A stretch of 64,000 nucleotides of DNA, from contig CAMCKH010000007.1 in the NCBI GenBank assembly GCA_945875435.1, positions 1-64,000 of the forward strand, in the 5' to 3' direction. The notes beneath the pieces were generated by a model, which saw nothing but the letters and a program-made list of their open reading frames with translations, was not told where the DNA came from and made no database searches. Below, in pieces: positions 1-41,854 of the stretch. Position 1 is the first letter of the stretch; every line of letters starts with the position of its first letter. The position numbers and the translations under genes are program-made. The DNA is from an uncultured Erysipelotrichaceae bacterium. Lineage in GTDB: Bacteria > Bacillota_I > Bacilli_A > Erysipelotrichales > Erysipelotrichaceae.

Positions 1-998
1 ACTGTTTTTTCAGAAGTAATATTATTTAAAATATTTGAATCTGCTGTTTGTGCATCAGGTGTTGCTGCCCAACCTAAGAAGTTAAATCCTGCTTTAGTTG
101 GGGTAAGTCCTGTTGCGTTTGAACCATAAGCTACAGTTTCAGTCACATTATCAGTACTACTATTATGAGTACCACCATTTAAGTTAAAGGTTACATTATA
201 GTTATTAGTGCTATATTGTGCATTTAACTCTACTGATTCTCCAGTAATGTTTCCTGTAGGATTTGGATCCCAGTTAGTGAATGTTTTGCCTGCAGCTGGA
301 GTTGGATCTACTAATTTACTTTGAACATTTTGATCATTCCAAGGAGTATTTTCTAATACATCAAATACCTTAGTGTTTCCATTGTTTCCAAAAGTTCCAT
401 CTTGTGCATTTAAAGTAACACGAGTATAGCCTTCTGGTTTAGGAGTAGTATTTGGATCAGTTACTTCAATTACGATATCTCTATACTGTGCAGTAACTGT
501 CTTATCTGTAACTAAAGCATCGCTAGTAGGAAGAGTTTCGCTCCATCCATTTTGTGCTTTTGTAGGGTTAGTTACAGTTACGGAAGGTGTGATATTTTCT
601 AATACTGGATCGTTCCAAGCAGTGCCTTCTAATACATCAAATACCTTATAACGTTTACCATCAATGTTTCCATTTTCCGTAGCGTCAAAGATAATTCTGA
701 CATAACCTTCAGGTTTATCTGTAGGAGTAGTATCAGTTTCTTGAGTTATTACTTTATCTTTATATACTGCGGTAGGAGTTGATGGTCCACTTGATACAAG
801 AGTAGTATCGTTAGGGATAGTTGGATTCCAGTTAGTAAATTTCTTATTACTATCAGTAGGAGTTGGGTTAGTAGGGATTTGGTCTTGAACTTCTTGGTCA
901 TTCCAAGGAGTGTTATTTAAGACATCTATAGTCTTAGTAGTAGGACCATTTTCTCCAAATGTACCATCTCCTGAATTGAAGGTAATACGAGTATAGCC
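1..998 (-). repeat. Long direct repeat, copy A (998 bp, cut by window start)
   Basis: By-eye comparison shows this stretch matching 2185-3182 base for base with a constant offset of 2184 bp, which is exactly 728 codons, so the duplication is in frame. Identity stops abruptly after base 998, where copy A reads gtctgg and copy B reads tggttg. Because copy A starts at the window edge, the true repeat may be longer. Confidence 0.9.
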
Positions 999-3900
999 GT
1001 CTGGTGTAGGATTGTCTGGATTAGTTACTTCTAATACTTTTGGTTTAGAAACGTATTGTGCAGTAGTGTTAAATGTATCTACTGTACCTGTATCAGGAAC
1101 AGTTGGATTCCAAGCACTAAAGCGTTTAGTAATATCATTAGGTGTTGGATTAGAAGGAACTTTAGCTTGAAGCTGTTCATCATTCCAAGCTGTACCTTTT
1201 AAGACATCAATAATCTTAGTAGTTTCATCACCTTCAAATTTACCTTCCCCTGCGTTGAATGTAAGTCTTACATAACCAGCTTTTGGTTCATCTCCTAAGT
1301 TAGTATCAAACTTAGGTTTACTTTCATATTGAGCAGTAGGATTAGTTGGTCCATTTGTGATAGGTGTATCATCGCTAGGAATATTTTGGTCCCAACCACT
1401 AAACACCTTAGTATCACTATTAGGAGTTGGATTATTAGGAATTTGGGCTCTAACTAATGGATCGTTCCAAGGAGTGTTGTTTTCTACATCAATAATCTTA
1501 GTAGTAGGTCCGTTTGGTCCAAATGTTCCATCTCCCGCATTAAAGGTAATACGAGTATAGCCTGTAGGAGTTTCTGTAGGAGAATTTGGATCTACTACAA
1601 TTACTCTATCTCTATATTGTGCAGTGAAAGTATCGCTAGAAACTAAAGTATTGTCATTAGGAACTTCTTTATCCCAAGCACTAAATACTTTATTTGTATC
1701 ATTAGATACAGCTCTTGTAGGGATAACTCTTATAAGATCTTGGTCATTCCAAGGAGTGTTATTTAAAACATCAATAACTTTAAAGCCTTTACCGTCAATC
1801 GTACCATTTCCTGCATTGAATGTAAGTCTTACATAACCCTCTTCTGGATTAGTACCTGTAGGGTTTTCAATAATCTTATTCTTGTCTCTATATTGAGCAG
1901 TGAAAGTTTTTGAATCATTAATAGCTGTGTCATCAGTAGGTACATTTTCATCCCAAGCAGTGAATACTTTAGTATTTGACTTAGGAGTAGCACTAGCTGG
2001 AACCACTCCAGTTAATTCAGGGTCATTCCAATTAGTTCCTTGAAGCACATAGATTACTTTAGAAGGTTTACCTTCAATAGTACCTTCATCTGTCGCATCA
2101 AAGGTTATTGTCTTGTATTCAGAATCAGTAATTGGTGATTCAGGGTTAGTAATAACCTTAGGTTTAGCTTGCCATACCGCATAAACTGTTTTTTCAGAAG
2201 TAATATTATTTAAAATATTTGAATCTGCTGTTTGTGCATCAGGTGTTGCTGCCCAACCTAAGAAGTTAAATCCTGCTTTAGTTGGGGTAAGTCCTGTTGC
2301 GTTTGAACCATAAGCTACAGTTTCAGTCACATTATCAGTACTACTATTATGAGTACCACCATTTAAGTTAAAGGTTACATTATAGTTATTAGTGCTATAT
2401 TGTGCATTTAACTCTACTGATTCTCCAGTAATGTTTCCTGTAGGATTTGGATCCCAGTTAGTGAATGTTTTGCCTGCAGCTGGAGTTGGATCTACTAATT
2501 TACTTTGAACATTTTGATCATTCCAAGGAGTATTTTCTAATACATCAAATACCTTAGTGTTTCCATTGTTTCCAAAAGTTCCATCTTGTGCATTTAAAGT
2601 AACACGAGTATAGCCTTCTGGTTTAGGAGTAGTATTTGGATCAGTTACTTCAATTACGATATCTCTATACTGTGCAGTAACTGTCTTATCTGTAACTAAA
2701 GCATCGCTAGTAGGAAGAGTTTCGCTCCATCCATTTTGTGCTTTTGTAGGGTTAGTTACAGTTACGGAAGGTGTGATATTTTCTAATACTGGATCGTTCC
2801 AAGCAGTGCCTTCTAATACATCAAATACCTTATAACGTTTACCATCAATGTTTCCATTTTCCGTAGCGTCAAAGATAATTCTGACATAACCTTCAGGTTT
2901 ATCTGTAGGAGTAGTATCAGTTTCTTGAGTTATTACTTTATCTTTATATACTGCGGTAGGAGTTGATGGTCCACTTGATACAAGAGTAGTATCGTTAGGG
3001 ATAGTTGGATTCCAGTTAGTAAATTTCTTATTACTATCAGTAGGAGTTGGGTTAGTAGGGATTTGGTCTTGAACTTCTTGGTCATTCCAAGGAGTGTTAT
3101 TTAAGACATCTATAGTCTTAGTAGTAGGACCATTTTCTCCAAATGTACCATCTCCTGAATTGAAGGTAATACGAGTATAGCCTGGTTGAACTGGTGTTGT
3201 TGTATCTGTAACTGGAATTATTTTTTGTTTATCTCTATATTGAGCTGTAGTTTCAAAATCAGTTACATTTTCATTATTATTAGGAATACTTGTAGACCAC
3301 GCTGAAAACTCTTTAGTATCTAAGTTTGGTGTAGCTGTTGGAATAGTAGCTTGAACTTCACTATCTTCCCACTTAGTTCCTATTAAAATATCTACTACTT
3401 TCTTAGTAGCGTTATTTTCAAACTTACCATCTCCTGAATTATATGTTATTCTTACATACCCTTCTGGAGTATTTCCTGGATTATTAGGATCTTCCTTAAC
3501 AAGCACTTTAGTCTTATCTCTAAACTGTGCAGTGAAAGTTTGCGGTGCTGTGATAGCTGTATCATCGTTAGGAATAGCTTGATCCCAATTGCTAAATTCC
3601 TTAGTATTCACATTAGGAGTTGGATTATTAGGAATTTGGGCTCTAACTAGTGGATGATTCCAAGGAGTATTGTTTAACACTTCAATTACTTTAGATGTAA
3701 CATTGTTGCCAAAATTTCCATCATTTCCTGAATTGAATGTTATACGATGATAACCTGGTGTAACTTCGCTGCTTGGATCGGTAATAACCTTAACTCTATC
3801 TGTGTATTGTGCAGTAATTGTTTTATTTTCTACTGGATTTTCATTTACAGGTAAAGTTTCGTTCCAACTACTAAATATCTTACTATCATCTTTGTAATTT

Positions 3901-6128
3901 GCGACTGGTTCAATATTTTCTAATGTAGGGTCATTCCAAAGAGTTCCTTCTAATACATCAACCACCTTATAACGTTTGCCACCAATGTTTCCGTTTTCCG
4001 TTGCGTCAAAGATAATTCTAACATAACCAAAAGTTGATGGATCAGTAGGACTTTCTTTAATCACTACTTTATCTTTATATTGAGCTGTAAAAGTAGTTGT
4101 TCCTGCATTGATTGGTGTATCATCATTTGGAACGTTCGAATCATATCCGCTAAATACTTTAGCACTACTATCAGGTGTAGGGTTAGAAGGCAGTTCGTTT
4201 TGAACAGCTGGATCATTCCATTTTGTGCTATTTTCTACATCGATAATTTTAGTTTTCTTTCCGCCAGTAAATGTTCCATCTCCCGCATTAAAGGTAATAC
4301 GAGTATAGCCTTCTGGTGTAGTGTTTGGATTATCAGAATCTTGTACAACTACCTTATCTTTATATTGTGCAATAAACTCTTTGTTTTCTGCAACATTTCC
4401 ACTTGGGAAAACAGGTTGCCAATGAGAAAATAATTTTCCTACAGGAGCAGTTGGATCGTTTGGTTTACGACCAGCCACATCATTCCAAGGAGTTCCTTTT
4501 AAGACATCAAAAGCCTTAACTTTTGCATTGTCATCAAAGTTACCTTCAGCTGCATTAAATTTAATTCTTACATAATCTGTATCAGGATTTTCTTCATCAA
4601 TATTAGTTACAGGAATAATGTTTTGTTTAGGTTGCCATACTGCATAAACTGTTTTTTCAGAAGTAATATTATTTAAAATATTTGAATCTGCTGTTTGTGC
4701 ATTAGGTGTTGCTGCCCAACCTAAGAAGTTAAATCCTGCTTTAGTTGGGGCATTTGGCTCTTCTGCATTACTTCCATGATTAGTGGTCTTAACAACATCA
4801 CTTAAATCTTCTCCGATTTTTCCACCATTTAAGTTAAAGGTTACATCATAAGTATTCAAATTATACTGTGCAGTAAATTCTTTAGCTTCAGTTACATTAT
4901 CAGTTGGAAACTCTGGAGTCCAAGAAGCAAATGTTTTTCCTACAGGAGCAGTTGGATCGTTTGGTTTACGACCAGCCACATCATTCCAAGGAGTTCCTTT
5001 TAAGACATCAAAAGCCTTAACTTTTGCATTGTCATCAAAGTTACCTTCAGCTGCATTAAATTTAATTCTTACATAATCTGTATCAGGATTTTCTTCATCA
5101 ATATTAGTTACAGGAATAATGTTTTGTTTAGGTTGCCATACTGCATAAACTGTTTTTTCAGAAGTAATATTATTTAAAATATTTGAATCTGCTGTTTGTG
5201 CATTAGGTGTTGCTGCCCAACCTAAGAAGTTATGATTTGTTTTTGTTGGATTTGTGGTTGGAGCAGAAACATTACTGCTATGCTCCACCTCTTTAACTAT
5301 AGGATTAGTATCTTGATTTATACTTCCTTGATTTAAATTAAAAGTTACATCATAAATTTCTGTAATAGTTAAATTAGCACCATCTATTAAATCATAATTT
5401 TTATTTATTCTATATTTAGAATTTCTATGTGAAAGTTTACCACCATTTTCCCCAGTAACACTTACTCCAAAAGAAGATGCATTGTCGTCAGTTAATGCTA
5501 TATCGCTTAGATTAACCGTATCAATATTTCCATCTGTTTCAGGATGTAAATCAATATGTGAGTCTACTAAAGGGAAGTTAGTATAAGCTTTATCACCACT
5601 TGGCATATTAAATACTACAGGAAAATCGCTATGCTTATGCGTAGCATTCCAGGTAACATTTAATTTAGTGTTTGCTAATTGGAATGTATTAAGTATTGTT
5701 TGATAGCTGCTGCTTGGATTAAGTCCATAAGCATTTTGATCAAAATCTGAACTTAAAATAAAATAAAATAACTTATTATATAAACTATCAGTATCTTTAA
5801 TAGTATATCCGTAATAAACGGTATTGCCGTTTTCCAATCCTTTTAAAGGTACGGTTTGAATATCATTTAACCCTTTTTGTCTGACAGTTCCTTGAAACTC
5901 AACACCTGTTTCAACCCAATCGCTACCATTAGGGCTTGTGGTTTTCCATTGAGATAAAGTGACTTCCATTCCATTAGGAAAAATGCTTTGGAAATCAAAA
6001 CCAGTATAGTCATTCGTGATATCAACTTTAAGTTCAACTTCTGAAGTTGTTTGTGCGAATACTGAAGTAGAAAAACTACTAAATACAAGTGCCAATGACA
6101 ACAATAAAGTGATTATCCTTTTAAACAT
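1..6128 (-). CDS. Giant secreted repeat protein (adhesin-like), 3'-truncated by the window edge
   Basis: The reading frame starts at ATG 6126-6128 after AAAGGAG and stays open to base 1, giving at least 2042 residues; the C-terminus lies outside, so a cell-wall anchor cannot be checked. Residues 1-26 are a signal peptide (MFKRIITLLLSLALVFSSFS, cleavage likely after VFA-QTT). A unique domain of about 250 residues follows. Then come two kinds of repeats. InlB/Listeria-Bacteroides type B-repeats (FNLNGG...GFNFLGWAA...KTVYAVWQ) lie near 5.35-5.14, 4.87-4.64, 2.40-2.18 kb and at the left edge. About sixteen repeats of roughly 95 residues, each beginning GYVRITFNAGDG-like, contain W-N-D and end in TAQYRDK. 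Inferred role: extended stalk of a surface adhesin. It probably shares a transcript with the upstream gene at 6186-11666, whose repeats are related. Exact long DNA repeats suggest recent recombination. Confidence 0.85.
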   Translation of the reverse strand, partial: MFKRIITLLLSLALVFSSFSTSVFAQTTSEVELKVDITNDYTGFDFQSIFPNGMEVTLSQWKTTSPNGSDWVETGVEFQGTVRQKGLNDIQTVPLKGLENGNTVYYGYTIKDTDSLYNKLFYFILSSDFDQNAYGLNPSSSYQTILNTFQLANTKLNVTWNATHKHSDFPVVFNMPSGDKAYTNFPLVDSHIDLHPETDGNIDTVNLSDIALTDDNASSFGVSVTGENGGKLSHRNSKYRINKNYDLIDGANLTITEIYDVTFNLNQGSINQDTNPIVKEVEHSSNVSAPTTNPTKTNHNFLGWAATPNAQTADSNILNNITSEKTVYAVWQPKQNIIPVTNIDEENPDTDYVRIKFNAAEGNFDDNAKVKAFDVLKGTPWNDVAGRKPNDPTAPVGKTFASWTPEFPTDNVTEAKEFTAQYNLNTYDVTFNLNGGKIGEDLSDVVKTTNHGSNAEEPNAPTKAGFNFLGWAATPNAQTADSNILNNITSEKTVYAVWQPKQNIIPVTNIDEENPDTDYVRIKFNAAEGNFDDNAKVKAFDVLKGTPWNDVAGRKPNDPTAPVGKLFSHWQPVFPSGNVAENKEFIAQYKDKVVVQDSDNPNTTPEGYTRITFNAGDGTFTGGKKTKIIDVENSTKWNDPAVQNELPSNPTPDSSAKVFSGYDSNVPNDDTPINAGTTTFTAQYKDKVVIKESPTDPSTFGYVRIIFDATENGNIGGKRYKVVDVLEGTLWNDPTLENIEPVANYKDDSKIFSSWNETLPVNENPVENKTITAQYTDRVKVITDPSSEVTPGYHRITFNSGNDGNFGNNVTSKVIEVLNNTPWNHPLVRAQIPNNPTPNVNTKEFSNWDQAIPNDDTAITAPQTFTAQFRDKTKVLVKEDPNNPGNTPEGYVRITYNSGDGKFENNATKKVVDILIGTKWEDSEVQATIPTATPNLDTKEFSAWSTSIPNNNENVTDFETTAQYRDKQKIIPVTDTTTPVQPGYTRITFNSGDGTFGENGPTTKTIDVLNNTPWNDQEVQDQIPTNPTPTDSNKKFTNWNPTIPNDTTLVSSGPSTPTAVYKDKVITQETDTTPTDKPEGYVRIIFDATENGNIDGKRYKVFDVLEGTAWNDPVLENITPSVTVTNPTKAQNGWSETLPTSDALVTDKTVTAQYRDIVIEVTDPNTTPKPEGYTRVTLNAQDGTFGNNGNTKVFDVLENTPWNDQNVQSKLVDPTPAAGKTFTNWDPNPTGNITGESVELNAQYSTNNYNVTFNLNGGTHNSSTDNVTETVAYGSNATGLTPTKAGFNFLGWAATPDAQTADSNILNNITSEKTVYAVWQAKPKVITNPESPITDSEYKTITFDATDEGTIEGKPSKVIYVLQGTNWNDPELTGVVPASATPKSNTKVFTAWDENVPTDDTAINDSKTFTAQYRDKNKIIENPTGTNPEEGYVRLTFNAGNGTIDGKGFKVIDVLNNTPWNDQDLIRVIPTRAVSNDTNKVFSAWDKEVPNDNTLVSSDTFTAQYRDRVIVVDPNSPTETPTGYTRITFNAGDGTFGPNGPTTKIIDVENNTPWNDPLVRAQIPNNPTPNSDTKVFSGWDQNIPSDDTPITNGPTNPTAQYESKPKFDTNLGDEPKAGYVRLTFNAGEGKFEGDETTKIIDVLKGTAWNDEQLQAKVPSNPTPNDITKRFSAWNPTVPDTGTVDTFNTTAQYVSKPKVLEVTNPDNPTPDGYTRITFNSGDGTFGENGPTTKTIDVLNNTPWNDQEVQDQIPTNPTPTDSNKKFTNWNPTIPNDTTLVSSGPSTPTAVYKDKVITQETDTTPTDKPEGYVRIIFDATENGNIDGKRYKVFDVLEGTAWNDPVLENITPSVTVTNPTKAQNGWSETLPTSDALVTDKTVTAQYRDIVIEVTDPNTTPKPEGYTRVTLNAQDGTFGNNGNTKVFDVLENTPWNDQNVQSKLVDPTPAAGKTFTNWDPNPTGNITGESVELNAQYSTNNYNVTFNLNGGTHNSSTDNVTETVAYGSNATGLTPTKAGFNFLGWAATPDAQTADSNILNNITSEKT
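2185..3182 (-). repeat. Long direct repeat, copy B (998 bp)
   Basis: Second copy of 1-998. It encodes one InlB-type repeat followed by three of the 95-residue repeats. The lack of visible substitutions over nearly 1 kb of otherwise divergent repeats indicates a recent in-frame tandem duplication or gene conversion. Confidence 0.9.
4434..4731 (-). repeat. Shorter direct repeat, copy A (298 bp)
   Basis: Matches 4935-5232 with an offset of 501 bp (167 codons). It covers the end of one 95-residue-type repeat and the start of an InlB-type repeat inside the giant surface protein gene. Confidence 0.88.
4935..5232 (-). repeat. Shorter direct repeat, copy B (298 bp)
   Basis: Second copy of 4434-4731. 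Identity ends at the shared AAGAAGTTA, after which the two copies differ. It is independent of the 2184-bp period, so two nested duplication events have shaped the gene. Confidence 0.88.
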
Positions 6129-6150: not shown

Positions 6151-6184
6151 ACATATAGAAGTTGTTTATACAACTCCTATATGT
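6151..6184 (-). other. Intergenic hairpin between the two surface-protein genes
   Basis: Two 15-base arms (6151-6165 and 6170-6184, one mismatch) with a TTAT loop begin two bases after the stop codon at 6186. The minus-strand sequence that follows is AAATTAAAG, then the ribosome binding site AAAGGAG of the next gene, without a good U tract. It is therefore more likely an mRNA-processing, stability or partial attenuation hairpin than a strong terminator. Confidence 0.6.
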
Positions 6185-6185
6185 G

Positions 6186-9100
6186 TTATCTTACTTTGAA
6201 TAATAGTGGTGGTGCTACAATTTCATTTTCTTGAGCAACCATCTCTATCTTAATAGTATCTCCTTTTCTAAGTGGTGTTTGAAGATCGAAAACCACAACA
6301 TTTCCACTTAAAACTCTTTCTACAACTACAGCATTATCTTTTCCTTGATTGATATAAAGTTTAATTGTTCTGCCATTAGCTTCACTATTAACTTTAATAA
6401 CGCTAGAGTTTCTAACTGGTCTTGGTGCATCCATTTTTATTGATTTATAACTATATTCTACTGGTACAGAAACTGTTTTAGTTTGTCCAGAAGTATTAGT
6501 CAGTTCTGCATTAACACTAAGTTTATCACCGTTTGTAATAACGTTATTGTTAATGTTGTAGTTTATTTCTTTTTCTTCAGAAGTTAAGTTAGTTCCTTGA
6601 GAATTTATACTTATCGCATTTCTAACAGCTTCTTCAGTAGGGTTAGTTCCAAATGGAACTGTAATTTTATTAGCATTCGCATCTATTACATTGATTGAAA
6701 TAGTTCCAGTGTAATTAGGATTATGCGTTTCATCTTTAACTTTAATTCTTCTTTCGTATAAACCGACAGCTTCATTGGTTTTACCACTTAAAGTTACTTG
6801 TTGTTCATTTTGATTATTAGTATTAACTGCAAGTGTAATATCAGCAAAATCACTTCTTTCATCTCTTACCTTATCCACAAAGTATAATGAACCTTCTTCA
6901 ATAGAAGCACTATCTTTATCTTTAATAGGTAGGTTTTTAGTAATATTTTCACCTTTCCAAATCACAATTTTGTCATTATAATTACCTACATTTACATTTC
7001 CAGTATTTGATTCAAAATATGGAGCTTTGTCAATTTCTTCAAATTGAGCAATATAAGTCTTATTATTTTGACCATCGCTTATGATATTAGGAATATCTTG
7101 ACTGTTACTATCTTTCCATTTTTGAGTCATAACTCTCCAGTTTGCATTTGGAGTTAATGTTACTAGATTATCTATAACACTTCTATTTGTTCCAGACTTA
7201 ACATCATATACCTTAGTTTGAACATTTTGGTTATTTACTGTTAATTGACCCTTATTATTTTCAGCAGTTAAGGTAATTCTAACATAACCAGGTGTAACTT
7301 GAGAATTAGGCTCGTTTGTTTTATCAATTAAACTATAATTTACTGGAACATCTACCACTTTTACCATTCCTTTAAAGTTTGTAAGTTTAACTTTGGCGAT
7401 ATAAGTTCCTTCATTTAAGTTATCAGGTTTATATAAAATTTCTTTGGTAACTTCTCTACTAGCTCCTGCAGTAGTATAATTTCCATAATTTATATTTACA
7501 GCAGCTTTAATTTCTTCTTCGGTAGTTGTTTCACCAACATTTTTATTTATCAGATTTGCGGAAGCATCAAATACTACTACCAAAAGACTATTTGTGGTTA
7601 AGGTGTTTCCAGCTTGATCAGTTACTTTAACAGATCTAGTGTTAAAACCAGGAGCAGTATTAGCATATCCAGTAAGTTTCACAACATTTTGAGTATTGTC
7701 AAACGTTAATGATAATGAACCTACATCAGAACGAACTCCTCTTTGATTCACAAATAAAGCATTGTTGAAAGTTGTAGGATTAACTCTATCTTTAATAGGT
7801 AGTGTATAAGTAGATACACTTTCCATTCGTCTATATGTATCACTTGAAGTATCTGGATTTTCATTTATTTTCCAAACAAAGATATTTTCTAAATTACCAT
7901 CATTTGTGTTTACATATAATTTTTGTTCAAATTGAGCAGTATAACTTCCAGCATTATTAATAATTTGAGGAATATCTTGACTGTTACTATCTTTCCATTT
8001 TTGAGTTGCAACGTGATAATTGTTATTAGGAACTAATGTTACTAAATTATCAATAACACTTCTGTTTGTTCCAGCTTTAACATCATATACTTTAGTTGCT
8101 ACATTTGCATTTCCTACTCTAAGTTGTCCTTTATTAGCCTCTGCATTTAAAGTAATTCTGACATAACCAGTAGGTGTTGTAGCACTTGGGTTTGTTGTTC
8201 TATCAATTAAACTATAATTTACAGGCACATCCACAACTTTAGATACCCCTTTAAAGTTTGTAAGTTTAACTTTAGCGATATAAGAACCCTCATTTAAGTT
8301 ATCAGGTTTGTAAACCACTGTCTTAACAACATTATTAACAGCTGTTGAAACTCCACTTGGATGATTGATAGTTACCGCATTTTTAATTTCTTCTTCGGTA
8401 GTTGCTTCACCAACATTTTTATTTATCGGATTTGCGGAAGCATCAGATATATAAACCTTAACAGCATCACTTTTTAGCGTATGATATGGATCTTTAACAA
8501 CAATTTTTCTATTATAAGCCCCAACATTAGCGTTTGTATGACCACTAAGATGTACTATATTTCTATCATTATCAAACGAAATTAAATTATTTGTATCTCT
8601 TTCAACTTTTTGTGCTACCGCATCATTCCAACCAAAATATGCTTCTGTGAAAGTTGCTGGGACATTTCTATCTTTAATAGGTAAAATGTATCCTCTAATA
8701 CTTTCCATTTGTCTGTATGTATCATTTGAAGTATCAGGATTTTCATTTAATTTCCATAAATAAATATCTTCAACATTGCTGGTGTAGTATAATTCTTTAT
8801 CATTTTTTTCAAATTGTGCGTTATATGTTTGTGATGTTACGATAGTTTGAGGAATATCGTTATTAGAAGCATCTTTCCATTTAGGTGTCATAACACTATA
8901 ATTTGTATTTGGAGTTAATGTTACTAAATTATCAATAACGCTTCTATTTGTTCCAGACTTAACATCATATACTTTAGTTTGAGTATCTCTACCATTTACG
9001 GTTATTCGTCCTTTAGTAGCATCAGCATTTAAAGTAATTCTGACATAACCTTGTGGAGTTGCTGCACTAGGGTTATCTGTTCTATCAATCACATTGTAAA

Positions 9101-11666
9101 AAATATTTACAGGAACTACTTTATATTGAGTGTTTGCTTTTTCAGGATCGTTATAAGTTACTTTTACAAGTACTGTTTTATTTTCATTAACATTTGGTAA
9201 AGTTTCACCATTAAATAGTTCTTTACTAATTTTTGAGGTGTTTAAATCACTTAATTGTGAAACTACAACTTTATTTTTAACTTCATCAAGTGATACAGAT
9301 TCACCTATATTCTTAACAATATCGCCACCATTTGCCTCTGCTACAAATATCCAAATATCTGGTCCTGTAACATTATGTGGTCCATCTGTTACTTTAAAGT
9401 TAGCAGTATATCTTGTATTAACATCAGCATAACCTGACATATATACTTTTCCGTTTTGAATTTTAAAGCTAATATTAGGTAATATTGCATTCCCTGTTCC
9501 ATCTTCCACAACACTAACATTATTTGCATTAAAAGTCATTGGATTATCAGGATCAGTAATTGGAATTTCTTGGTCTTGAATTACATCTTTTAGACCTGGT
9601 TTAATATCGCTGTTATTAGTTCTCCAAATAACAATATCTCTTTTTGCTATTGAAGGTTCTTGATTAGGTATATAACCTATGAAATAAATCGGAATTGTTT
9701 GTCCTACCCCATCTGTATCATTTGAAGTCGATCCACCACGAGCAATTGCTGGAGCAGTACCAATATATACTTTTTGTTTTGTAAGGGTGTTTTGTAATAA
9801 ACCATTCCCTGTTATGTTAAAAGTGCTAACCCCATTAGCTTGAGGAACAGAAACACTTGAACTTATCGGTCCATTAACACCATTATACATAGAACAATAT
9901 CCAGCATTATTACAAGTTATTTTATCAGAATTCACAACAGGTCTTCCACCCCATAAGTTGCTAGGATTTACAATATCTAAATAGTTTACATTTTTATCAT
10001 CACTAACATTACTATTGTTATTATTATATCGTGCAGGTCCGTTGTCAGCATAGTTACTAAAACCATTGTTTCCATTTTCAACCCACAATTTTTCATTACC
10101 GTTTAAAGCTCTTTTATCGTATCTATTAGCATCAACATTTGTTTTAGCGGTTGCTCTAAGTTGTTTCAATACCTTATTTGTATCAAAATCAGTGCTATCG
10201 TTAACATTATATTTATATACTAAAGCAGTATTGTTGTTTGCCCAAGAAAGACCTATATCATTTCTATTTTCAACTGAAGCATTTTCCCAACTTATATCAT
10301 ATTGATTAATAGTAGGAAGTTCTTTAAAGTTTACTACTACTTCTACATCTTTATAAACCTTAGATTCACTAATTACTCTGACAGTTACACGATTGCCCCA
10401 ACCTGATGTTGGTATATTTCCAATAATTACTTTTCTATATTTATTGTTTATTTCACTTTGTGCTGTTCCACCATCAATAGTTACTTTATTTAATATTTCT
10501 GTTCTTAGTGCATTTTGCTGATCTGTAGTTAATGCACCACCTGGATCTTTTGTGATTTCTCCATTAACAACAACATCTGCAATGTAAGTTTTATACATAT
10601 TAGCAGAAGCTCTAAAGAAATCTGTTACTACACCTTTTCTATCTGTTACACGAAGACCTCTTGAATAAAGACCTTTATCTACATTAGGAGTTCCGTAAGC
10701 TCCATTTGCGTCCACATTATAACCCAAACCAGCGTCATTTCCGTTTTCAGCAATAACTCTTATTGATGCAATACCATCAGCATCTGTAATGTCAGCAATT
10801 TTAGCCCTATCTACATTATCAGGTTGATCATTTGAACCTACTGTTTTAATAAGTGTATTTTTAAATAAGTATATATTTCGCTTGTTAGGAGCAGATGTAG
10901 GTTGGTTTCCTAAGTCGGTATAAGCTACAACCCATCTTCTACTGTTCATATTAGCATCAAACATTGCTATAAAAGGTACAGAATATGGGTTTACACCTTG
11001 ACGAATATCTACGCTTATAGTATAACGATACTTACCCTTTGCCATATAACTCTTATACCAATATCCGATACGAGGCGTCGTATTCGTATCTATTCCGTGA
11101 AATCTTTGAAGTTCCGCAAGATTTGCATCCCCTACAGGATTACCAGATTGCTGGTCAGAAGTAGTTCTGTTTTGTTCATAAAGGTCTTTAAAGTCTACCC
11201 TTAAAGGAGCTTTTACTGTAGCATTATATTTTGTACGCCTTTCGATTTCACTTGGGTATAACCCATAATCACTTCCAGTTAAATTACGTTCCGGCTGATA
11301 TGCACCACCCCTCCACTGTTCACGTTGAATTCTAAGGGTACTTTCAATGATATCTTGGCCTAATCCAAAATTGTGAAAAGGAATACCTGATGCTTGTTCT
11401 GTAGGATTGTACTCCACGACCCAAGTTACTCTTTGACCAGAAACACTAATATTCGTAACTCTTATCCACTTGTTAATTTCGCCAACATCACCATTATCTT
11501 TTGCAATGTGAAATATATGCGTGTTTGAATGAGTTCCACGATTAAAAGCAGCACTCACAACTTTAGGTGCAAAAATGCCTATCACAATAAATAAACTAAA
11601 ACCAAAACATACAATTACTTGATATATCTTTTTAGTCCATAAAACATCTTTAAATCTTTTATCCAT
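6186..11666 (-). CDS. Large secreted surface protein with three 290-residue repeat units
   Basis: 1826 residues. Residues 1-40 form a positively charged start and a long hydrophobic segment ending VVSA-AF, consistent with a signal peptide. Residues 40-850 are a unique region rich in Asn and Asp. Three copies of a domain starting GYVRITLNA and containing VYDVKSGTNRSVIDNLVTL and WKD lie near residues 875, 1167 and 1460, spaced about 292 residues. They are related in layout to the GYVRITFNAGDG repeats of the downstream gene. Between them are LPIKDR and Rib/cadherin-like Ig-type segments. The C-terminus ends PPLLFKVR without LPXTG motif, hydrophobic segment or charged tail, so attachment must be non-covalent or through a partner. 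The start has an AAAGGA ribosome site and follows a possibly phase-variable promoter. Likely role (inference): adhesin or matrix protein. Confidence 0.85.
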   Translation of the reverse strand: MDKRFKDVLWTKKIYQVIVCFGFSLFIVIGIFAPKVVSAAFNRGTHSNTHIFHIAKDNGDVGEINKWIRVTNISVSGQRVTWVVEYNPTEQASGIPFHNFGLGQDIIESTLRIQREQWRGGAYQPERNLTGSDYGLYPSEIERRTKYNATVKAPLRVDFKDLYEQNRTTSDQQSGNPVGDANLAELQRFHGIDTNTTPRIGYWYKSYMAKGKYRYTISVDIRQGVNPYSVPFIAMFDANMNSRRWVVAYTDLGNQPTSAPNKRNIYLFKNTLIKTVGSNDQPDNVDRAKIADITDADGIASIRVIAENGNDAGLGYNVDANGAYGTPNVDKGLYSRGLRVTDRKGVVTDFFRASANMYKTYIADVVVNGEITKDPGGALTTDQQNALRTEILNKVTIDGGTAQSEINNKYRKVIIGNIPTSGWGNRVTVRVISESKVYKDVEVVVNFKELPTINQYDISWENASVENRNDIGLSWANNNTALVYKYNVNDSTDFDTNKVLKQLRATAKTNVDANRYDKRALNGNEKLWVENGNNGFSNYADNGPARYNNNNSNVSDDKNVNYLDIVNPSNLWGGRPVVNSDKITCNNAGYCSMYNGVNGPISSSVSVPQANGVSTFNITGNGLLQNTLTKQKVYIGTAPAIARGGSTSNDTDGVGQTIPIYFIGYIPNQEPSIAKRDIVIWRTNNSDIKPGLKDVIQDQEIPITDPDNPMTFNANNVSVVEDGTGNAILPNISFKIQNGKVYMSGYADVNTRYTANFKVTDGPHNVTGPDIWIFVAEANGGDIVKNIGESVSLDEVKNKVVVSQLSDLNTSKISKELFNGETLPNVNENKTVLVKVTYNDPEKANTQYKVVPVNIFYNVIDRTDNPSAATPQGYVRITLNADATKGRITVNGRDTQTKVYDVKSGTNRSVIDNLVTLTPNTNYSVMTPKWKDASNNDIPQTIVTSQTYNAQFEKNDKELYYTSNVEDIYLWKLNENPDTSNDTYRQMESIRGYILPIKDRNVPATFTEAYFGWNDAVAQKVERDTNNLISFDNDRNIVHLSGHTNANVGAYNRKIVVKDPYHTLKSDAVKVYISDASANPINKNVGEATTEEEIKNAVTINHPSGVSTAVNNVVKTVVYKPDNLNEGSYIAKVKLTNFKGVSKVVDVPVNYSLIDRTTNPSATTPTGYVRITLNAEANKGQLRVGNANVATKVYDVKAGTNRSVIDNLVTLVPNNNYHVATQKWKDSNSQDIPQIINNAGSYTAQFEQKLYVNTNDGNLENIFVWKINENPDTSSDTYRRMESVSTYTLPIKDRVNPTTFNNALFVNQRGVRSDVGSLSLTFDNTQNVVKLTGYANTAPGFNTRSVKVTDQAGNTLTTNSLLVVVFDASANLINKNVGETTTEEEIKAAVNINYGNYTTAGASREVTKEILYKPDNLNEGTYIAKVKLTNFKGMVKVVDVPVNYSLIDKTNEPNSQVTPGYVRITLTAENNKGQLTVNNQNVQTKVYDVKSGTNRSVIDNLVTLTPNANWRVMTQKWKDSNSQDIPNIISDGQNNKTYIAQFEEIDKAPYFESNTGNVNVGNYNDKIVIWKGENITKNLPIKDKDSASIEEGSLYFVDKVRDERSDFADITLAVNTNNQNEQQVTLSGKTNEAVGLYERRIKVKDETHNPNYTGTISINVIDANANKITVPFGTNPTEEAVRNAISINSQGTNLTSEEKEINYNINNNVITNGDKLSVNAELTNTSGQTKTVSVPVEYSYKSIKMDAPRPVRNSSVIKVNSEANGRTIKLYINQGKDNAVVVERVLSGNVVVFDLQTPLRKGDTIKIEMVAQENEIVAPPLLFKVR

Positions 11667-11715
11667 GCTTTTTATTCCTTTCTTTTTAATACACTTAAAA
11701 ATTTAATACAATTAA

Positions 11716-11750
11716 TTTTTAATCCGAAATTATTAAAATCGGATTAAAAA
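11716..11750 (-). other. 5' UTR hairpin of the 1826-residue surface protein
   Basis: Perfect 12-base arms (TTTTTAATCCGA and TCGGATTAAAAA) around an 11-base loop. It lies about 15 bases after the predicted transcription start and about 50 bases before the start codon. The arms begin with T and end with A, which is the reverse of an intrinsic terminator, so it may be a leader-stability or protein-binding element. Confidence 0.55.
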
Positions 11751-11770
11751 ATGGCTAATATCCACCTTAA

Positions 11771-11798
11771 ATTATACTATATATATATATATATTCAA
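11771..11798 (-). promoter_or_regulatory. Promoter with (TA)n spacer upstream of the large surface protein
   Basis: On the minus strand: -35 TTGAAT (11793-11798), a 16-base spacer made of seven AT units plus AG (11777-11792), and -10 TATAAT (11771-11776). The spacer is almost entirely a dinucleotide repeat. Slipped-strand gain or loss of one unit would give 18 or 14 bases, so strength could switch. Confidence 0.7.
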
Positions 11799-12036
11799 TA
11801 GTTTTTAAAAAATTTTTAACTAATTTTTATTATTTTTTTAATAATAAATTTGAATTTCACTTTCTTGTTTTAATCTTCTTTATTTATTTCTTTTTTAACT
11901 AATAAATGTCATAAAAGTTTATAACTAATTGTCATTTTATTATTTCCTTACTTTGTTTAAAACATTGTTATTATTATACCATAAATAGCATTAAAAATCT
12001 TTGTTTTTGAATATTGTCTTTTGTATGCGTTAGTAA
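11799..12036. other. AT-rich spacer, nothing recognised
   Basis: About 240 bases of mostly A and T between the surface-protein promoter and the broken KilA-N gene. I see no open frame with a ribosome site, hairpin terminator or RNA gene. Confidence 0.5.
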
Positions 12037-12482
12037 TTATTGAGATAGTCTGTTAGTTCCATTTTTATAATTTACCACTTGAGTATGTTCTACATCTGCT
12101 AAAATCCATGACGCAAACTCCATAGCAATATCGCTATGAGCATATGTTCCTCCACCTCTACCAACTTTCACAAATAGACCTTTTGCATTAGTGCTGTTGC
12201 CCATCGTTGTGGAGATAATGTAAAAGCATTGCTTCCTGCTTCTTTTAAAAACCCCTCGAATTCGATGGGGTTAAATTCTGGATTATTTAACTTCTCCCAA
12301 ATTCCTAAATATTCAATCGTATTAAAATTTCGCATCCAGTTTGCTACGACAACATTAGGTTCTTCTTTATTTTTATATCTTGCAATATCTGTTAAAGATA
12401 TATAATCATTTTTAAAATCTTCCATATAAACTTCAATACTAAATCCTTTAGCTTCTATTTTTTCTTTTTTTATTTTAGACAT
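12037..12482 (-). pseudogene. KilA-N domain protein, frameshifted
   Basis: The first frame starts at 12482 (after AAGGAG) and encodes a KilA-N N-terminus (SIEVYMEDFKNDYISLTDIA, then ANWMRNFNTIEYLGIWEKLN) but stops at 12168 after 104 residues. Shifting frame near 12190-12200 continues the domain with TNAKGLFVKVGRGGGTYAHS and FASWILADVE to a stop at 12037. That second part is the expected KilA-N core (NA.G...K.GR.GGTYAH.DIA..F..W). The gene is therefore broken by an indel and also lacks the C-terminal extension often seen. KilA-N proteins are phage or plasmid DNA-binding factors, so this is probably a decayed mobile-element remnant. A sequencing error is the alternative. Confidence 0.8.
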
Positions 12483-12569
12483 ATTTTCTCCTTAATTTTC
12501 TTTATGAAAATTCAGATTATATTCACTATTTTTTAGAATGTATAAAAACAAATATTAATATAAACAAAA

Positions 12570-41023: not shown

Positions 41024-41052
41024 TTGAAAAAATAATCTTTGTGCTTTATACT
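41024..41052 (+). promoter_or_regulatory. Promoter of the acidic coiled-coil gene
   Basis: -35 TTGAAA (41024-41029), 17-base spacer, -10 TATACT (41047-41052); AGGAGG follows before ATG 41069. Confidence 0.75.
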
Positions 41053-41068
41053 TAAAACAGGAGGAACT

Positions 41069-41854
41069 ATGCAAAACGAAAATATTAAAAATATATTAGA
41101 TAGTTTATATAATAAAATAAAAGAAGTTGAAATTAAAGCAGATCAAAAATTAGAAACTGTTGTGGAAACACAAGAAAAAGGTTTGATTAGATTTAAAAAT
41201 GAAGTTATTACCGCTTTAAATTCAATGGTTGGTGAAATTGAAAATAAATTACCTTTATTAAATCCACTAACTGCCGAGGAACAAGTTAATAGAGCTAGTT
41301 TAAAACTTGTGAATGCTATTGAACAAATAAATAATAAAATTGATAGTTTTCAAGATCGTGAAATAGTAGAAGAAATTGAAGAGCCACAAATCATAATAGA
41401 AGATGAGGTTTCAATAGATGAAGTTAAAATTAACGAAGTTGAAGTTGACACTATTGTGGAAGAAGTCGCAAACGAAGTAAATAAAGATGACGAAAATGAA
41501 GCTGCTTTAGAAGAAGTAATTGAAGAAACTTTTGAACCAGTAATTGAAGAAACTTTTGAACCAGTAATTGAAGAAAACTCTGCTGAAGATATTGAAGTTG
41601 TGATTGAAGAAGTAAACCAAGAAGATGAAGATGTTTTAGGAATTAGAAAACTAGTACAAGAAATGTATAAAGATGAAAACCAAGACATCACAAACATCAT
41701 TAAAGAAGTTAGAAACATCACTGAACTAATAAACAAAAATGTTGAGGATGCATTAAATCTAGAAATTTTAAAAAACAACCCTCATAAAGCTAAAGAAGTT
41801 GTTTATATGATCTTTGATAAATCTGTTGAAAGATTAAAAAATATTCTAAAATAA
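41069..41854 (+). CDS. Acidic coiled-coil protein, unknown
   Basis: 261 residues from ATG 41069 (AGGAGG upstream). Helical ends (1-95 and 200-261) flank a very acidic middle (about 100-195) rich in Glu and Val, with the octapeptide EETFEPVI repeated twice in tandem (24-base DNA repeat near 41524-41571). No signal or membrane segment. Not recognised; the layout resembles cytoskeletal or scaffold proteins, which is inference only. Confidence 0.82.
   Translation: MQNENIKNILDSLYNKIKEVEIKADQKLETVVETQEKGLIRFKNEVITALNSMVGEIENKLPLLNPLTAEEQVNRASLKLVNAIEQINNKIDSFQDREIVEEIEEPQIIIEDEVSIDEVKINEVEVDTIVEEVANEVNKDDENEAALEEVIEETFEPVIEETFEPVIEENSAEDIEVVIEEVNQEDEDVLGIRKLVQEMYKDENQDITNIIKEVRNITELINKNVEDALNLEILKNNPHKAKEVVYMIFDKSVERLKNILK

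Follow-up and report, generated by a model that had tools for sequence, protein, structure and literature searches.

A dinucleotide repeat fills the spacer between the −35-like and −10-like hexamers upstream of the gene for a 1826-residue secreted protein in an uncultured Erysipelotrichaceae bacterium. We consider it probable that this site is a sigma-A promoter with a slippage-prone spacer, one of seven TA contingency loci that switch envelope genes in a genome from which MutS1 and MutL have apparently been lost. The window (the whole 64-kb stretch of DNA analysed) is contig C7 of the assembly, which is 1.17 Mb in size and 96% complete; RpoB shows 68–70% identity to uncultured Erysipelotrichaceae and related assemblies. 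The genus is represented by this one genome, and tract lengths are those of the assembly consensus.

Architecture of the putative promoter region

The features of the region, all on the minus strand, are as follows.

11793..11798, minus: −35-like hexamer TTGAAT (sequence match)
11777..11792, minus: 16-nt spacer (AT)7AG, ATATATATATATATAG, read from the sequence
11778..11794, minus: alternating TA tract of 17 bp, a potentially slipping repeat, one of seven in the genome
11771..11776, minus: −10-like hexamer TATAAT (sequence match, 6/6)
11716..11750, minus: inverted repeat TTTTTTAATCCGA...TCGGATTAAAAA, arms of 12 bp, in what would be the 5′ UTR of the 1826-aa gene
11676..11681, minus: Shine-Dalgarno-like AAAGGA, upstream of the ATG at 11666
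6186..11666, minus: gene for the 1826-aa secreted protein, with N-terminal signal sequence and ATG at 11666
6151..6184, minus: hairpin of ∼15 bp, ACATATAGGAGTTGT...ACAACTTCTATATGT, with no U tract, between the two giant genes
3..6128, minus: gene for a giant secreted protein of at least 2042 aa with List_Bact_rpt (PF09479) repeats

Positions 11798–11771 of the minus strand read TTGAAT-(AT)7AG-TATAAT, exactly as in the preliminary description, and lie 105 nt 5′ of the ATG of the 1826-aa gene, whose product length had also been given correctly. The two hexamers thus enclose the repeat at a functional spacing of 16 nt, and the predicted transcription start is ∼98 nt 5′ of that ATG (11666). In a consensus scan of 11600–12300 the TTGAAT-16-TATAAT arrangement ranks first, with a 10/12 sigma-70-type match. 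The same scan gave six such matches against 4.7 expected from shuffles; promoter-like matches are common by chance in AT-rich DNA, so the hexamers alone prove nothing and it is the repeat that bears the weight of the argument.

That repeat is exceptional in its surroundings. The motif TATATATATATA has three overlapping matches in the window where 0.09 are expected, and the tract at 11778–11794 is the sole alternating A/T run of more than nine bases within the window, the second-longest being nine. By chance, 64 kb should contain ∼0.001 runs of 16 or longer, and the 17-bp tract is far beyond that expectation.

Between the promoter and the 1826-aa gene a terminator scan found none, and an Rfam search of 11600–12500 returned no match. 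The inverted repeat at 11716–11750 forms a hairpin without a U tract and is possibly an operator or mRNA stabiliser. Its 12-bp arms lie closely downstream of the tract, and two sibling tracts elsewhere in the genome lie downstream of a −10, outside the spacer; both facts would suit a TA repeat whose role is in binding or DNA structure (through curvature, easy melting or a cruciform), with the inverted repeat as operator. We regard this as very improbable, given that the hexamers flank the tract at exactly 16 nt and that the arrangement in which the run abuts the −35 recurs in the order.

The downstream genes

The 1826-aa protein has a signal-peptide-like N-terminus and a repeat region that it shares with the product of the next gene; it has no Pfam, NCBIfam or PDB match, and no LPXTG is visible at its C-terminus. 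It appears to be a repeat-rich secreted protein whose attachment to the surface is putative. No homologues were found in GTDB genome contigs, 59 relatives, viral contigs, plasmids or PDB sequences, so that there is no orthologous promoter with which the repeat length could be compared; the one match found is a weak paralogue in the same genome, at C3:70666. An 848-aa secreted protein encoded at G000:C3:69427-71973 (L024:6428-8974) contains both TSP3 repeats and a lipase-3-like stretch. It is a relative of the 1826-aa protein (32% over ∼290 residues), and its gene is divergent from the LTA-synthase-like gene that carries a TA tract.

The 2042 residues of the giant protein are a minimum, since its gene (3–6128) runs off the contig start. 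It is separated from the 1826-aa gene by 58 nt that contain the strong hairpin, and a scan of this gap found no promoter-like site and no terminator. The suggestion that the two genes might switch together, by read-through, is plausible on the basis of this gap, and weaker than the promoter reading itself. On the other flank of the tract lies the 3′ end of a 104-aa ORF (12168–12482) on the same strand, and there is no divergent gene at 11778–11794. Elsewhere in the window, ORF 41039–41854 contains a perfect 24-bp tandem repeat of 2.6 copies (41515–41576).

TA tracts across the genome

Exactly seven TA tracts in the 1.17-Mb genome reach 12 bp, and every one of them is at least 16 bp long. Searches with six and with seven TA units returned the same seven tracts, the shortest being 16 bp in matched phase or 17 bp as alternating bases. 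Genome-wide expectations, calculated with Markov models of order 1–4 built from the window, are 0.7–2.3 words of 12 bp and 0.004–0.02 of 16 bp or more; no tract of 12–15 bp occurs anywhere in the genome. This gap, together with the jump from nine to 17 bases within the window, fits repeats that have expanded and been retained. The other six tracts are the following.

C3:94520, spacer type: TTGAAT-(AT)9-GATAAAAT before the gene for a 142-aa membrane protein
C5:6377, leader: directly 3′ of TTGAAA-17-TATAAT, the promoter-like site of a YSIRK adhesin (aRib/GA/FIVAR domains, at least 2100 aa)
C11:890, leader/start: precedes a gene whose product combines a YSIRK-like N-terminus with Ser/Thr-rich repeats
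C3:69245, coding: LTA-synthase-like sulfatase, in the first transmembrane helix
C9:653, coding: Big_3 secreted protein, in the signal peptide; the gene has a good Shine-Dalgarno sequence
C14:21249, coding: polytopic membrane protein

Each of the seven occupies the 5′ end of a gene whose product is a membrane, secreted or wall protein: two form −35/−10 spacers, two fall in the leader or start region, shortly after promoter-like sites of YSIRK-type adhesin genes, and three are within the first codons. The site in the window is the clearest promoter case among them. The three coding tracts are in frame as assembled, and the gain or loss of one TA truncates the product to 12–29 aa. An N-terminal hydrophobicity score of at least 1.6 is found in 7/7 tract genes and in 16 of 59 background ORFs (∼27%), giving a probability of ∼1e-4 that is crude because IYIYI codons are hydrophobic in themselves and the background was sampled with few ORFs. 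The tracts on C9, C11 and C14, three of the seven, are no more than 1 kb away from the end of a contig.

The second spacer-type tract, at C3:94520, has a divergent gene for a 547-aa membrane protein on its opposite side. It has no proper −10 at 16–18 nt, the best candidates being TATGAT at 15 or TAAAAT at 20, and may therefore be in a weak phase. We do not argue for common descent of the window promoter and C3:94523, as the 88% match over 42 nt is mostly the TA tract itself.

Some surface genes lack a tract: the LPXTG anchors encoded at C15:6193 and C3:108896 adjoin none of the seven. Two further LPXTG anchor matches with identical scores lie on small contigs (G000:C17:10961-11080 and C18:9532-9651) and possibly represent a duplicated surface gene. 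A 663-aa ORF at G000:C14:17798-19789 (L029:4799-6790) joins group 1 glycosyltransferase and RecX-like helical domains in an unusual-looking fusion.

Mismatch repair genes

Searched with the profile model, the 1.17-Mb genome yields no MutS1 over the cut-off; the sole match scores 81 bits against a cut-off of 642 and is identified as MutS2 (G000:C3 near 88807-89565, L160), adjoining an ORF read as UvrC-like. MutL has no match in the genome, whereas 56 of the 60 genomes in the same search exceed the cut-off. The mutS and mutL genes are frequently adjacent, so that a single gap in the assembly (96% complete) might conceal the pair, and loss of MutS1/MutL mismatch repair is probable rather than certain. 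With neither protein found, slippage would probably go unrepaired. Across relatives, loss of MutL was rejected as a simple predictor of tract number, since neither G016 nor G018 has a MutL match above the cut-off and both carry zero tracts.

These results bear on the possibility that the site is a constitutive AT-rich promoter whose spacer is TA-rich by chance and whose repeat is stable, with no switching. The 16-nt spacer is already near the optimum and a single length was assembled, as such a promoter would have it, but without MutS1/MutL an uninterrupted dinucleotide run of 17 bp is not likely to remain stable, there are six sibling tracts in the genome, and in one population of Ca. Mycoplasma girerdii 13 of 20 dinucleotide tracts were variable (PMC5476646). 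We therefore think a constitutive promoter improbable.

Comparison across the order

We searched 316 genomes of the order for TTGA[A/C][A/T] (TTGAMW) directly followed by an AT run, with the reversed pattern as control. The forward pattern has 13 matches, two of them the window genome's own sites, against three for the control (one-sided p ∼0.01). At 10 of the 13 sites a Shine-Dalgarno start follows on the same strand at no more than 150 nt, compared with none on the opposite side (p ∼0.001), and most of the genes downstream encode membrane or secreted proteins. Spacer lengths, taken to the first good −10, range from 11 to 17, and several relatives with odd spacers (11, 13, 15) are predicted to be OFF or weak as assembled.

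TA tracts in more distant relatives are mostly beside housekeeping genes, so tracts can arise without a surface role; those in genomes of the same family have mixed gene neighbourhoods. In one order-level relative (G042:C16, L126:2950-2989) a 40-bp TA tract lies near, or 5′ to, a ribosomal-protein-like ORF, and long tracts thus exist away from surface genes too.

The housekeeping tracts of the relatives raise the question of whether the seven tracts are neutral microsatellites, products of repair loss and AT bias that grow where they are tolerated, persist at AT-rich 5′ regions and hydrophobic IYIYI codons, and are unselected as switches. Such an origin would be in keeping with the failure to find MutS1/MutL and with the suitability of IYIYI for signal peptides and transmembrane helices. 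Against it, every one of the seven tracts is at an envelope gene, none having been seen at other AT-rich intergenic regions, the three coding tracts stay in frame though a single slip truncates the protein, and the sites at which TTGAMW abuts the run point towards genes. We judge the neutral explanation unlikely; a neutral origin would, moreover, be compatible with switching, provided that the tracts slip.

In support of contingency loci are the location of the seven tracts and the orientation of the order-level sites. It is quite possible, and we propose tentatively, that in a walled lineage without MutS1/MutL long TA tracts, placed in spacers, leaders or signal-peptide codons, serve as a genome-wide envelope switchboard, and that TTGA-(AT)n switches are recurrent across the order.

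Proposed mechanism

Sigma-70/sigma-A promoters work with spacers of 16–18 nt and hardly or not at all with 14 or 20. We infer promoter activity, the rate of slippage, the ON and OFF outcomes and a benefit to the cell along the following lines. Slipped-strand mispairing would alter the number of TA units in steps of 2 bp. The assembled spacer of 16 nt is predicted to be ON; loss of one TA would give 14 nt, predicted OFF, gain of one would give 18 nt, predicted to be weaker, and gain of two would give 20 nt, again predicted OFF. The seven TA loci would jointly switch surface adhesins and envelope membrane proteins. The preliminary description had proposed a phase-variable promoter here; the architecture, the genome-wide context of the tract, the failure to find the repair genes and the recurrence of oriented TTGAMW-(AT)n sites across the order speak for that proposal, and the switching itself is a prediction from them. 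If it is true, there would be stochastic surface switching in walled Erysipelotrichaceae, linked to the apparent loss of mismatch repair. The set of TA tracts is detectable from sequence alone, and the prediction is testable in existing metagenome reads.

Comparison with known systems

The best-documented examples of repeat-driven phase variation appear to be those of host-adapted Gram-negatives and of mycoplasmas, and a literature search of open-licence papers found no report of such switching for Erysipelotrichaceae. Judged by its sequence, the site is likely a new case of hif-type promoter-spacer phase variation within a wider TA contingency set.

The hifA/hifB promoter of Haemophilus influenzae carries (TA)9-11 and is described as working by spacing change (van Ham et al. 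1993, as reported in PMC2651432 and PMC3899988). The likeness drawn at the outset to the hif promoters holds: in both, a TA run forms the −35/−10 spacer and one unit shifts the spacing by 2; the gene downstream encodes a surface protein in Haemophilus and a secreted, putatively surface-attached one here. There, however, the tract serves two divergent promoters, whereas here a single promoter faces one direction; length variants are documented there, whereas the present tract is known from one assembled sequence; and here the host is a Firmicute and the protein is not a pilin. Since hifA and hifB share their tract and no divergent partner gene exists here, the site is not a hif locus proper. 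The porA promoter of Neisseria meningitidis, as described in PMC3899988, is similar in having a repeat between −35 and −10, which there sets the transcription of a surface protein, and differs in that the repeat is a mononucleotide run of G that changes in one-base steps.

A direct precedent for dinucleotide tract variation in an uncultured Firmicutes-affiliated bacterium is Ca. Mycoplasma girerdii, in which length variants were seen in metagenomic reads and all simple-repeat indels observed were in tracts of at least five units (PMC5476646). It resembles the present case in its small genome, its Firmicutes-affiliated lineage and the position of its dinucleotide repeats, which lie within surface protein genes or close to them (PMC5476646). 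The switching inferred there is by frameshift and involves many motifs (PMC5476646), whereas here only TA tracts are considered, and they occupy promoter, leader and coding positions.
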